The notes under the pieces were generated by a model. The model saw only the letters and a list, made by a program, of their open reading frames with translations, ran no database searches and was not told the DNA's origin. Position numbers and translations under genes: made by a program. This document shows positions 6,548 through 63,935 of a stretch of 64,000 bases of DNA, in pieces; position 1 is the stretch's first letter, and each line of letters opens with the position of its first letter. This DNA is from Alkalibacterium sp. (lineage in GTDB: Bacteria; Bacillota; Bacilli; Lactobacillales; Carnobacteriaceae_A): assembly GCA_020832185.1 (NCBI GenBank), contig JAFIFE010000016.1:1-64000 (forward strand), in the 5' to 3' direction.

Positions 6548-6859
6548 TTATGCACCATGTTCATCTTGTAGAATCTCAAGTTTTTGAAGGACAGTATCTA
6601 TACTATTGGGATCTAAATTCGAATCATCAAATTCCGCTCCATGCCCTTGAATCAGCATATTTAATTTCGGCTGCAAGCCAGTAATATCATGCGCTGCTTC
6701 TGGTATCTCACAGTTATGCGCGACTAACAAAGCGTCTGCTTTTTCGTGAAAAGTATCTAAAGAGTCTAAAGCCATATTAGAATCATCAAATGTTACACCA
6801 TGGTCTTCCAGTAAAAAATTTAATTTTCTATTTATGTCATTTGCTATATTTTTGTCCAT
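6548..6859 (-). CDS. Small acidic protein made of two repeats, function unknown
   Basis: A 103-residue soluble acidic protein that I do not recognise. It consists of two similar halves: residues about 14-50 and 66-102 align through DHGVTFDDSNMALDSLDT and GHGAEFDDSNLDPNSIDT, each followed by a short helix ending LL or LQ. Each repeat has a conserved His-Gly and FDDSN acidic patch, and there is one Cys-containing AHNCEIPEAAHD linker. These could bind metal, but that is a guess. The gene is monocistronic, with a perfect FNR/FLP-box promoter and its own terminator, and belongs to the island's metal regulon by promoter architecture. Confidence 0.7.
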   Translation of the reverse strand: MDKNIANDINRKLNFLLEDHGVTFDDSNMALDSLDTFHEKADALLVAHNCEIPEAAHDITGLQPKLNMLIQGHGAEFDDSNLDPNSIDTVLQKLEILQDEHGA

Positions 6860-6899
6860 TTCTATAAATCCTCCGCATTTGTATTTTTGTTACATCTAC

Positions 6900-8288: not shown

Positions 8289-8307
8289 CTATAATGGAGT
8301 TGAGGGG
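8289..8307. repeat. Island attachment repeat, right copy within the ssrA 3' end
   Basis: CTATAATGGAGTTGAGGGG covers the last 13 bases of tmRNA and a few flanking bases. It matches 2560-2578 at 18 of 19 positions in direct orientation. Confidence 0.8.
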
Positions 8308-8656
8308 AGTCGAACCCCTGTCCAGACACCTTGACACTCGAGCATCTACGTTCATAGTTCCACCACTTAGATTTCGCTGAACATTAGCCGTAAAACAGGC
8401 ATCATGTGTCGCTAGTCTGCTAATCTCTTTCTATTCTTACAGACGGAAAGAATAGACGTATCCCACTTATTATAGGACCCGATACCGAGCACATGGGCGA
8501 TGCCGGTCGGATCACGCTAAGCTGTTATTACGCAGCTAAAGCGTATGTGTTGCTATTATTGTTTGCAGTTAGTTTAACTGTTGACGTTATTATGCAGCCG
8601 TCACCTGCAGAACGCAACCCCAGCTCAACTATGCCTGTCGAATCCGTAACAACCCC
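8295..8656 (-). ncRNA. ssrA: Transfer-messenger RNA (tmRNA)
   Basis: The tRNA-like ends are clear. The 5' GGGGUUG (8656-8650) pairs with 3' CAACUCC (8302-8296), with discriminator A at 8295 and the T arm GGGGUUCGACUCCCC. The CCA is not encoded (UUA follows), so it must be added after processing. The tag reading frame resumes at GCA (8564-8566) and ends with TAA TAA (8525-8530), giving ANNNSNTYALAA. The tag ends in ALAA, as in other Lactobacillales. tmRNA with SmpB frees stalled ribosomes and tags the nascent protein for ClpXP. A -10 (TATACT) lies at 8693-8698. The 3' end doubles as the attachment site of the adjacent island. Confidence 0.95.
8528..8566 (-). other. tmRNA proteolysis tag reading frame
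   Basis: Resume codon GCA, then codons for NNNSNTYALAA, then two TAA stops. The Ala-Ala end is the degradation signal read by ClpXP. Confidence 0.85.
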
Positions 8657-46169: not shown

Positions 46170-46280
46170 TACAAGCGAAATCTTTACAATTATGTGAGGA
46201 ATTCTCATTAATATGGATAGAAGGCCGTTAATATGGTAAAGTGTCTAGGATATAGGATCAGAAAGAAAAGAGGAACACAC

Positions 46281-47549
46281 ATGACACATTACGATGTACT
46301 CGTCGTAGGTGGCGGAACCAGCGGCATGATGGCTGCTATTTCAGCCGCAGAACACGGAGCCCGAGTTGGCTTAGTTGAAAAAAATAAATTTGTCGGGCGA
46401 AAGTTGCTTGTTACAGGTAACGGACGCTGCAACGTCACTAATAATCGAGATAAAGAAGAAATCATCACTCACATCCCTGGAAATGGCCGATTCTTATACA
46501 GCGCATTTTACCAGTATGATAATTATGATATTATGAATTTTTTCAAATCAAAAGGCATTCAGTTAAAAGAAGAAGACCACGGGCGGATGTTTCCAATCAC
46601 AGATAAATCCCGTACGATTGTTAATGCATTGACTCAGATAATGGAAGATACAAAAGTGGATGTTCACGTAAACGCCCCTGTCGAAACTGTTTTATATACA
46701 GACGGACGTGTTGAAGGGGTCGAGCTTCAAGATGGACGTATTTTACATGCAACCTCTGTTATTTTGTCCACGGGTGGACGGGCCATGCCAAAAACGGGGT
46801 CGACCGGAGACGGATATATGTGGGCTAAGAAGGCTGGCCATACAATCAAAGAACTGTATCCTACCGAAGTCCCGATCACTTCTGAGGAACCATTTATTCA
46901 AGACCGGACACTTCAGGGCATTTCATTAAGAGATGTCGATCTCAAAGTCCTGAATAAAAAAGGCAAAACCGTCATCAATCACCGGATGGATATGATTTTT
47001 ACCCATTTAGGTATTTCCGGACCAGCTGTCCTGCGCTGTTCGATGTTCGTGCTTCAAACAATGAAACGAGACAAAACAGACTTCGCTCAAATGAGTCTGG
47101 ACAGTGCTCCTGATGAAACTGTCGGGTCTCTGAAACAGTCACTTGAGCGTCTGATGAAAAAAGAAGGCGAAAAAAGCATTAAAAATACGCTCAAGCACTA
47201 TGGACCTGAGCGCTATATTCTATTTGGTTTAGAACAATCAGATATCGACAGTGAACGGGCATTTAAAACGTTGACGCCTAAGGAACTCGAATCCATCATC
47301 ACTTTCCTGAAAGATTTCCGTTTTAAAGTTCACGGATCTTTACCGATTGAAAAAGCATTTGTAACAGGCGGCGGGGTTCATACAAAAGAAGTGAACCCTA
47401 AAACCCTTGAAAGCAAGTTGATGCAGAACTTGTACTTCACCGGAGAAATTCTGGATTACAATGGCTATACTGGCGGCTATAACATTACCGGCGCGTTTAT
47501 TACCGGACGTGTCGCTGGTATGCATGCAGCACAAAATTCTTTACAGTAA
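46281..47549 (+). CDS. HI0933-family NAD(P)/FAD-dependent oxidoreductase (BaiN-like)
   Basis: A 422-residue flavoprotein. The FAD-binding Rossmann motif VVGGGTSGMMAAISAAEHGARVGLVEKN opens the protein, followed by KLLVTGNGRCNVTN, the HI0933 signature, STGGRAMPKTGSTGDGYMWAKKAGH, THLGISGPAVL, and the C-terminal FAD segment YFTGEILDYNGYTGGYNITGAFITGRVAG. Related proteins reduce bile-acid intermediates or are of unknown function. ATG at 46281 has AAGAGGAA upstream; an in-frame start at 46233 lacks a site. Its transcript runs into the palindromic array at 47601-47952. Confidence 0.9.
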   Translation: MTHYDVLVVGGGTSGMMAAISAAEHGARVGLVEKNKFVGRKLLVTGNGRCNVTNNRDKEEIITHIPGNGRFLYSAFYQYDNYDIMNFFKSKGIQLKEEDHGRMFPITDKSRTIVNALTQIMEDTKVDVHVNAPVETVLYTDGRVEGVELQDGRILHATSVILSTGGRAMPKTGSTGDGYMWAKKAGHTIKELYPTEVPITSEEPFIQDRTLQGISLRDVDLKVLNKKGKTVINHRMDMIFTHLGISGPAVLRCSMFVLQTMKRDKTDFAQMSLDSAPDETVGSLKQSLERLMKKEGEKSIKNTLKHYGPERYILFGLEQSDIDSERAFKTLTPKELESIITFLKDFRFKVHGSLPIEKAFVTGGGVHTKEVNPKTLESKLMQNLYFTGEILDYNGYTGGYNITGAFITGRVAGMHAAQNSLQ

Positions 47550-47600
47550 TGACACAGAATCGACTTGTCGATTCTTCTCTTTATTAAAATGGATCATTTA

Positions 47601-47952
47601 GGTAGTGCTCATCAGTTTATCAATGATGAGCACTACCTATTTGTTGTTTTGTGTATCACTCACGATAATTTTGCTGCTCGAGTCATACACAATTAGCCTC
47701 TTGTGTAGTACTCACACTGCTGTTTAAGTTGAGTACTACCTATCCATCAGTTATTAGTAGTACTCATAATTATTCTCAAAACGAGTCAGTCCAATATCGG
47801 ATCTTGTGTATGAGTCACAGATCTACTGCCTGTCGAGTCATACAGTATAAGAAGGATTAAGTAGTACTCATACACTTGCAGGACTACGAGTACTACACAT
47901 TCAAGCTCTTGTGTATGACTCATTCGGACAAACTGAATCGAGTACTACACAA
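47601..47952. repeat. Array of seven palindromic units with about 51-bp period
   Basis: Seven successive inverted-repeat units begin at 47601, 47649, 47701, 47756, 47804, 47861 and 47909. Arms are of two kinds: TTGTGTAGTACTC (inverse GAGTACTACACAA) and TTGTGTATGACTC (inverse GAGTCATACACAA); unit 7 pairs one of each. Unit 1 is a perfect 16-bp stem with a 9-base loop (GGTAGTGCTC...GAGCACTACC). Spacers between arms differ in sequence but are 9-20 bases long. The array fills the whole gap between the flavoprotein gene and the next terminator. It resembles a bacterial mosaic of palindromic units; function unknown. Confidence 0.85.
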
Positions 47953-47968
47953 TCACATCATAAATGAA

Positions 47969-48008
47969 GAAAAAACCTGACATCAGAAAGTCTGATGTCA
48001 GGTTTTTA
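47969..48008. terminator. Bidirectional terminator between the palindromic array and the minus-strand genes
   Basis: A perfect stem AAAAACCTGACATCAGA with TCTGATGTCAGGTTTTT around a 3-base loop. Confidence 0.92.
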
Positions 48009-48020
48009 TTATAATCTATA

Positions 48021-48521
48021 TCATAAGTCTTCCAGTGTGTCGTTAATGAATTCAGACACTTCCTGATTTTCTTCCCTCATAGCATTGTACCAGTCAAACC
48101 TTGAAGTAAACTGAACGTTATTATATAAGCGACCGAGACCATGAGAAAGGGTTTCGAGTTCATCGTATTCTTCTTGAGTCAATTCCCCCTGATCATCCAA
48201 TCTGGCTAACATATCGCTGACACGACGAATTTCTCTATCGACATTTACCCATCCATTTTGAAACTCATGGTAACCGTAGCGATGCCGACTCAACTGTCTA
48301 CGGTAACTGAATAGTAACTGTTGCCCTTCGTCTTGATCCAGATCAACATTCTCCCAGTCTACACGTGATGTCTGAGTCAGGAGATCCTCATAGTATTCCG
48401 CCTCCATCAAATATCTAATCCCTAAGTCTCTCCTAAGGTCTCTGTTCTCTCTAAACTGAAACAGTAACAGACCAGCCAAGGCAACCACAGCAATTATTAA
48501 GGCGATTAAAGATTTCTTCAC
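48021..48521 (-). CDS. Membrane-anchored protein of unknown function
   Basis: A 166-residue protein with one N-terminal membrane helix (about 3-22, KKSLIALIIAVVALAGLLLFQF) and a charged helical outside part rich in Arg, Asp and Glu, probably coiled coil or helical bundle (RENRDLRRDLGIRYL...LTQEEYDELETLSHGLGRLYNN). I do not recognise the family. GTG at 48521 with AGGGGGG nearby is the likely start, since the upstream ATG at 48575 would put 18 polar residues before the helix and would precede that site. It lies downstream of pepF in the same direction. Confidence 0.65.
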   Translation of the reverse strand: MKKSLIALIIAVVALAGLLLFQFRENRDLRRDLGIRYLMEAEYYEDLLTQTSRVDWENVDLDQDEGQQLLFSYRRQLSRHRYGYHEFQNGWVNVDREIRRVSDMLARLDDQGELTQEEYDELETLSHGLGRLYNNVQFTSRFDWYNAMREENQEVSEFINDTLEDL

Positions 48522-48606
48522 ATCTTCCCCCCCTTTTCTAAATGTTGGTATTTGGTAAAGAGCTTCATTATTCAAAAAAAGATACTATTTGATATAGTGA
48601 GACTGA

Positions 48607-63600: not shown

Positions 63601-63930
63601 AAAAAAAACGCCATCTGTTTTTACACAGAGACGATTACATCGCGGTACCACTCTACTTGCAGACCCATGCTTTTAAACTCTCCCATCAGAAATATACGAG
63701 TCCTATTTGGCGGTCTGCCACCTTAATGCATTAACGCTGCATACGGCTTTACTTACTCTAAATTCCCGTTTGGCTTTACTCGACTTGATTGAGTTGTCAA
63801 CCATTCGCCCCGCTGAATTTCAGTAAAGCATCTTACAAGCTCGTTTCAATAATCCTTCATGCCAGCCTTCCACTCTGTGCTGACTCGCTGTGATGAATAA
63901 GACCATCTACTCTCTTGTTCTTTGATGTTA
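63601..63930 (-). promoter_or_regulatory. T-box riboswitch leader of the arginine operon
   Basis: The T-box core AGTGGTACCGCG lies at 63641-63652 (minus strand), followed by a terminator stem CGTCTCTGT/ACAGATGGCG and eight T residues (63601-63635). Upstream is a Stem I with an AGUA loop-E strand in AGAGAGUA. The opposite side reads GAAACGAG (about 63840-63847), between helices GAUGGUCUU/AAGGAUUAUU and ACAAG/CUUGU. CGA (Arg) can be read there, agreeing with the operon, though ACG (Thr) is the other register. Uncharged tRNA should favour antitermination. Confidence 0.93.
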
Positions 63931-63935
63931 TGAGT

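Follow-up and report, generated by a model that had tools for sequence, protein, structure and literature searches.

The window, i.e., the whole stretch of 64,000 nucleotides analysed here, derives from an Alkalibacterium genome of 2.64 Mb (28 contigs, 95% complete), termed the source genome (G000) in the following. Within it, a flavoprotein gene and a gene of convergent orientation are separated by a spacer filled by seven units of inverted half-sites, and this array is flanked by two terminator-like hairpins (2 found vs. 0.3 expected). The features are:

46233-47549, plus strand: flavoprotein gene on the left side of the array, with the start taken from the longest ORF; the A. olivapovliticus orthologue is 96% identical and also adjoins an array
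47556-47575, plus strand: terminator-like hairpin between the flavoprotein stop codon and the array
47599-47952, no strand: entire array, made up of inverted half-sites in seven units of 51-53 bp (arm scan and detector)
47599-47639, no strand: unit 1, a perfect 16-bp inverted repeat with arms 47599-47614 and 47624-47639 (inverted-repeat search)
47651-47690, no strand: unit 2, GTGTATCACTC at 47651-47661 (plus) and GTGTATGACTC at 47680-47690 (minus)
47703-47741, no strand: unit 3, GTGTAGTACTC at 47703-47713 (plus) and AGGTAGTACTC at 47731-47741 (minus)
47755-47793, no strand: unit 4, TAGTAGTACTC at 47755-47765 (plus) and a decayed reverse arm near 47783-47793
47806-47845, no strand: unit 5, GTGTATGAGTC at 47806-47816 (plus) and CTGTATGACTC at 47835-47845 (minus)
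47859-47898, no strand: unit 6, AAGTAGTACTC at 47859-47869 (plus) and GTGTAGTACTC at 47888-47898 (minus)
47911-47950, no strand: unit 7, GTGTATGACTC at 47911-47921 (plus) and GTGTAGTACTC at 47940-47950 (minus)
47971-48007, minus strand: terminator-like hairpin separating the array from the convergent downstream gene

The preliminary description of this spacer had reported seven inverted-repeat units, and these were confirmed. Its spacing of 48-57 bp captured a regular repeat, the actual register being tighter, with steps of 52, 52, 52, 51, 53, and 52 bp between the starts of the forward arms. Two arm types had also been recognized correctly, but they do not alternate regularly: the arms are GTANNACTC-like, and in our own reading of the 13 readable arms the NN dinucleotide is GT in eight, TG in four, and TC in one case. 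Unit 7 indeed joins one arm type with the other. The pairing of like with like occurs in the window but is no rule across the arrays of the source genome and of Alkalibacterium olivapovliticus DSM 13175 (G003), where the NN values were 0.32 and 0.55 as observed and 0.33 and 0.56 with re-dealt arms. Extended symmetry within the window array is restricted to unit 1.

A detector was used that demands a 6-mer recurring in phase on one strand together with its complement, likewise in phase, on the opposite strand. At a period of 51-53 bp, the window array was the sole match in the 64 kb; the detector gave zero matches at four other period windows and zero in five first-order Markov resamples. Arm matches counted alone (up to two mismatches) showed no excess in the window (42 vs. 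39 expected), so that the signal resides in the phase. The array was absent from the list of a tandem-repeat finder and had zero matches at gathering score in Rfam, and its predicted RNA fold is much stronger than that of shuffled sequences (z -10.04). Elsewhere, the window contains a tmRNA gene (8292-8656, minus strand), a T-box leader (63624-63931, minus strand), and an 18-bp tandem repeat of 2.1 copies (6829-6866).

Arrays elsewhere in Alkalibacterium

Arrays with the window-type arm and an identical 29/23-bp spacing occur at 13 places of the source genome (contig C1 at 59k; C13 at 68k, with two units, and at 148k; C16 at 286k; C22 at 148k and 225k; C24 at 0.5k; C25 at 43.9k; C26 at 47.6k, which is the window array; C27 at 98k, 119k, 146k, and 208k), those at C16:286k and on C25 being decayed. 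When the arm pair was searched with up to one mismatch in 12 genomes of the genus, 39 places were found in the source genome, 25 in G003, one in G011, and none in the other nine, and the reversed control gave 0-2. The preliminary description had proposed such a search of the genome and its relatives and would have favoured a local accident if copies were lacking in both; the 13 places and the A. olivapovliticus arrays speak against it. A scan of GTDB with the own-dialect pattern returned three A. olivapovliticus stretches and matched once in a record of Tidjanibacter (L084).

Dyads of the own dialect, i.e., of the arm sequence used in the window, are found almost only in arrays, unlike the sites of an ordinary transcription factor. 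In the source genome, 32 of 33 lie inside arrays, the lone one at C27:173486, and in G003 one of 15 stands alone (C2:187801), four on C29 sitting 105 bp apart in pairs; the controls gave zero and one match, respectively. Some arrays contain higher-order repeats of 104-105 bp, and spacers are duplicated within arrays. The higher-order repeats suggest that arrays grow when two units are duplicated.

Five of the seven G003 arrays examined adjoin genes whose orthologues are array neighbours in the source genome, namely at the flavoprotein/PepF, YidC/NERD, amidase, GerMN-like lipoprotein, and DnaJ/LepA places (the names PepF, YidC, DnaJ, LepA, NERD, amidase, GerMN, and GH13, used here and below, are our own reading of the translations). 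The flanking proteins that were compared are 65-97% identical. The linkers of the five array pairs, on the other hand, do not on average resemble each other more than linkers of unrelated arrays do (best-match identity 0.47 vs. 0.47 in 58 unpaired pairs), and arm identity is 0.62 in paired and 0.61 in unpaired arrays. Residual similarity was found for the pair L033/L077 (39-41 nt at 80-82%, best E value 2.9e-6), and the pair L034/L082 gave a weak 139-nt match (E value 0.014). Place, arm, and phase thus persist, and most else has turned over. At the flavoprotein locus, a 184-aa ORF (window 48021-48575, minus strand) separates the array from PepF in the source genome, whereas at L079 of A. olivapovliticus nothing but the array separates PepF from the flavoprotein gene; a gene was therefore gained or lost beside the array.

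Half-site design and dialects

Relatives share the architecture of the arrays and differ in the arm sequences, which we call dialects. The common half-site of about 14 bp consists of WW, a dialect box of about 7 bp, and ACTCR, with half-sites alternating between the strands. Each repeat of about 52 bp is composed of a 34-bp two-fold site (GAGT-N26-ACTC) and an 18-bp free linker, and the period of 51-53 bp corresponds to about five helical turns. The start distance from ACTC to GAGT peaks at 22 bp (239 cases, with 67 at 21 bp), and that from GAGT to ACTC at 30 and 31 bp (192 and 69), in both cases over a background of about 20 and in counts that include repeats, as some loci overlap. In 45 array profiles from 18 genomes, in which a stretch border splits at least two arrays (L131 with L033; L221 with L222), the base 3' of ACTC, on which no constraint had been set, is a purine in 0.99; A/T amounts to 0.85 at position -9 and 0.94 at -8, the dialect box extends from -7 to -1, and the linker positions carry nearly zero information. 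ACTC stands at the linker-facing end in many dialects, and the AGTTCAG, CCGAA, and ACAAGTG dialects are without it.

Among 100 stretches (1.99 Mb), partly picked for pattern matches, which biases the number of arrays per base, the detector gave 30 and 31 matches at the period windows 50 and 52, in part to identical arrays, and 0-5 at other periods except for 18 at 34 bp, of which 16 fall within 52-bp arrays and are read as harmonics. A short motif is thus repeated in helical phase, as expected for an array of protein-binding sites.

The dialects vary between genomes at one and the same place. Behind the flavoprotein gene, arrays of the same period with other arms were detected in G004, G005, G006, G007, and G011 and recognized by reading in G002, the arm types including AGTTCAG, CAGTTGAC, and TTCGGT; none above the detector threshold was present there in G001, G008, G009, and G010. 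Behind YidC, the arms are of the GACCAACT type in G007, TTCGACA in G005, ATGACNAACTC in G004, and GTGCACACTC/TGTCGAACTC in G001. A single species-wide dialect, considered for the flavoprotein, DnaJ, and YidC loci of the 12 genus genomes, proved too simple a picture, as several dialects can share one genome. At 51-53 bp, the detector found 13 arrays (several dialects) within 200 kb of G005, seven within 400 kb of the source genome, and two within 100 kb of G007; eight other period windows yielded 0-2 matches for each genome group. The samples of G002 and G006 gave none, nor did that of G014, G015, G016, G028, and G032. The detector is insensitive to weak arrays, missing at its threshold seven known array loci of the source genome and G003 (L032, L036, L040, L041, L073, L075, L082), and samples without a match (G002, G006, G009, G013, G014, G015, G016, G028, G029, G030, G032, G034, G042) are not proof of absence; G002, G006, G009, and G013 carry the ACTC pattern described below elsewhere.

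Among 395 genomes of the order, 16 contain the exact pattern ACTC-N18-GAGT-N26-ACTC-N18-GAGT, covering five of 80 genera and two families: in ten of the 12 genomes of the own genus and in G013, G021, G027 (181 matches), G062, G083, and G103. The reversed pattern was found in none of the 395. In a sample of the phylum, the source genome was the only one of 398 with a match. The strict pattern undercounts, since it gave zero in G003 and G008, both of which bear arrays. The ACAAGT dialect is present at L268:13804-13939 of G035 and at L148, L150, and L151 of G005, genomes of two families, so that at least one dialect is common to two families; of the detector matches in G035, L266 is read as spurious and L268 as real. 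Dyads of the form AGTTCAG-N15-CTGAACT (up to one mismatch) were observed in ten of the 12 genus genomes, some in 51-bp arrays and some apparently single.

Partner arms and genomic setting

Pairing of the arms in RNA or in a cruciform predicts that partner arms are more similar to each other than arms re-dealt within the same array. For the 34-bp dyad, partner identity was 0.544 vs. 0.537 re-dealt (146 dyads; 25 of 300 shuffles reach the observed value), and for the linker dyad 0.538 vs. 0.534 (151 dyads; 65 of 300). In the source genome and G003, a slight partner excess was seen for the inner dyad (0.531 vs. 0.521; 108 dyads; 21 of 400), and a second dyad test gave 0.463 vs. 0.473 (126 dyads; 378 of 400). 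In G005, the values were 0.479 vs. 0.514 for the ACAAGTG dialect (14 dyads) and 0.542 vs. 0.478 for the CCGAA dialect (20 dyads; 16 of 400), the latter being a weak partner excess. An apparent pairing in these G005 dialects, obtained with partners from other arrays, disappeared for ACAAGTG and became smaller for CCGAA with same-array partners, because sub-dialects vary between arrays. Apart from these slight excesses, the compensatory pairing expected of 3'-UTR RNA hairpins was not found. Unlike dialects face each other on the two strands in eight of 37 array rows (G001, G005, G010; two of the eight are neighbours on one contig), with an opposite-strand identity of 0.26-0.42 and a same-strand identity of 0.76-0.91; there, the arms cannot pair beyond the anchor.

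The arrays are intergenic, overlapping ORFs of at least 90 aa by 0-4 bp after ORFs lying mostly inside arrays had been dropped. Of 33 arrays (1.59 Mb, 15 genomes), 14 are located in convergent, 17 in tandem, and two in divergent gaps, compared to 122, 456, and 150, respectively, of all 728 gaps of at least 60 bp. At 12 of the 14 convergent arrays (L035 and L080 were left out), gene and array are separated by a terminator-like hairpin on the left side in eight cases, on the right in seven, on at least one side in ten, on both in five, and on neither in two; this count was made without a shuffled control and with search windows reaching 45 bp into the array. The hairpins at ten of the 12 convergent arrays suggest that the arrays are untranscribed.

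Several arrays with a 105-bp higher-order period are traversed by open frames of 151-268 aa (L079:3231-3896, L082:3437-4243, also L076 and L081), the largest comprising 221 aa at L079 and 268 aa at L082. Since 105 bp is divisible by three, these frames are probably a by-product of the period.

Possible nature of the arrays

We interpret the arrays as phased binding arrays for a putative sequence-specific DNA-binding protein and assign this reading a probability of roughly 0.6. A binding platform for a DNA-binding protein had been one of three possibilities in the preliminary description, and it is favoured by the strict phase, the lack of clear partner covariation, the free linkers, the constrained arms, and the probably untranscribed setting. 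In the proposed mechanism, the alternately facing half-sites would be bound by the protein, and the five-turn period would line up identical protein faces along the DNA, giving a regular nucleoprotein row. Arrays would lengthen by duplication of one or two units, and the dialect box would be re-worded as the specificity of the binder changes. The coexistence of several dialects in one genome requires binder paralogues or a broad or relaxed specificity. The role is probably chromosome-architectural, such as that of a loop anchor, an insulator, or a segregation site, rather than gene regulation. Besides the coexisting dialects, the slight partner excess in two tests, the perfect hairpin of unit 1, the residual similarity of L033/L077, the two convergent arrays without a terminator-like hairpin, and the open frames in some arrays count against the reading as protein arrays.

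Among known systems, plasmid and chromosome centromeres and iteron arrays are phased rows of short protein-binding sites, and the arrays would work in a similar manner; unlike these, they occupy many loci per chromosome beside unrelated genes and show alternating orientation, dialects, and no known partner gene. The dispersed chromosome-organising sites of the matS, SlmA, and Noc type are generally single sites of one fixed sequence. The arrays may resemble them as chromosomal landmarks bound by one protein family, but differ in the near restriction of own-dialect dyads to arrays and in a sequence varying between species. CRISPR loci have a comparable repeat-spacer appearance; the window array, in contrast, has inverted half-site repeats in place of near-identical direct repeats with unique spacers, and spacers are duplicated within arrays.

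Nearest in look are REP and BIME elements such as those of E. coli and Xanthomonas (PMC2817692, PMC3733652). The arrays might likewise be interspersed repeats that owe their spread to a Y1 (RAYT) transposase or another enzyme of mobile elements, any function being incidental. PMC2817692 describes BIMEs as clustered outside genes, their elements following each other at regular distances and in alternating orientation, with many copies per genome and lineage-specific sequences. The arrays share the extragenic position, the alternation, the copy number, and the lineage-specific sequences. As to the GTAG (or CGTC) tag at one end of REP/BIME units, TGTAG occurs in the own dialect, and many other dialects lack GTAG. 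The term mosaic of palindromic units in the preliminary description fits the look, but neither a hairpin-forming unit nor, in the source genome, the transposase is found. Each REP is a palindrome in itself, and REPs go together with RAYT transposases, whereas the half-sites are not hairpins, partner arms pair little or not at all (with the weak excess in the CCGAA dialect of G005), one dialect can stand opposite another, and the arrays keep to a fixed period of about five helical turns. PF01797, the Y1 transposase family, had no match in the source genome, on which ground a RAYT/REP origin was rejected, and none in six further array-bearing genomes of the genus (G001, G004, G006, G007, G008, G011), including G001, which has more of the ACTC pattern than any other genome of the genus; it occurs patchily in five of the 12 genus genomes (seven matches in G010, six in G002, four in G005, one in G003, two in G009). 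Own-dialect dyads are not singly dispersed, and at shared places linkers turn over and arms persist. A plasmid or phage origin was likewise rejected, as blastn searches of plasmids with three arrays and of phages with the window array yielded no match; pattern scans of viral sequences yielded two single matches and one within an apparent phage coding sequence. We regard a mobile-element origin as unlikely, though it is the best placed of the alternatives.

A ladder of RNA hairpins in 3' UTRs, serving mRNA end protection, termination, or RNA-protein binding, appears improbable. The strong predicted fold of the window array, the perfect hairpin of unit 1, the avoidance of divergent gaps, and the weak partner excess in two tests are consistent with it. 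Low folding energy is, however, to be expected from any inverted copies of a motif, RNA hairpins need no strict helical period, and genes are often separated from the arrays by terminator-like hairpins. The re-dealing tests, with little or no partner covariation at either dyad, and the unlike arms that are unpairable beyond the anchor led us to reject hairpins as the main explanation. The structured 3' UTR with seven hairpins envisaged for the window is disfavoured too, as partner arms are scarcely more similar than arms re-dealt at random, and a terminator-like hairpin stands on either side of the array.

Similarly improbable is a selfish satellite DNA expanding by slippage or recombination, with a bound protein aiding its own spread. 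The higher-order repeats of 104-105 bp and the patchy distribution agree with it, but arrays stand at the same places in two species between which the linkers have turned over almost completely, which suggests long retention. If the arrays were selfish, they would represent satellite-like bacterial chromosomal DNA under strict helical constraint, which would be unusual as well. Least probable are sites of topoisomerase or gyrase acting as supercoil sinks between genes, for which the convergent excess and the binding of gyrase by E. coli BIME-2 (PMC2817692) speak, but a general enzyme leaves the dialect boxes unexplained, 17 of the 33 arrays lie between tandem genes, and 379 of the 395 order genomes lack the ACTC pattern, a search for which would miss other dialects.

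Returning to the phased protein-binding arrays, they appear, judged from their sequences, to be a kind of their own with a putative binder, because the hairpin unit of REP/BIME elements and, in the source genome, their RAYT were not found and we found no description of such an array architecture in the open-access literature. More tentatively, and with odds somewhat below even, they may constitute a new class of chromosomal element: five-turn-phased intergenic half-site arrays with a widely shared ACTCR anchor and a fast-changing dialect box, read by a re-specifying family of DNA-binding proteins. Such a class would be a bacterial counterpart of the rapidly evolving centromeric or insulator satellites, with places kept while non-contacted bases turn over. 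If a protein reads the arrays, they would provide a natural experiment in the coordinated change of DNA-binding specificity across many chromosomal sites, the dialects being many ready-made specificity variants, and possibly a Gram-positive chromosome-organising system for which no described counterpart was found in the open-access literature.

No common DNA-binding candidate was seen among the array-adjoining genes when the translations at 20 and 13 loci were read. A GH13 (alpha-amylase family)-like gene adjoins four arrays of different genera (L031, L240, L243, L256), which may be chance.
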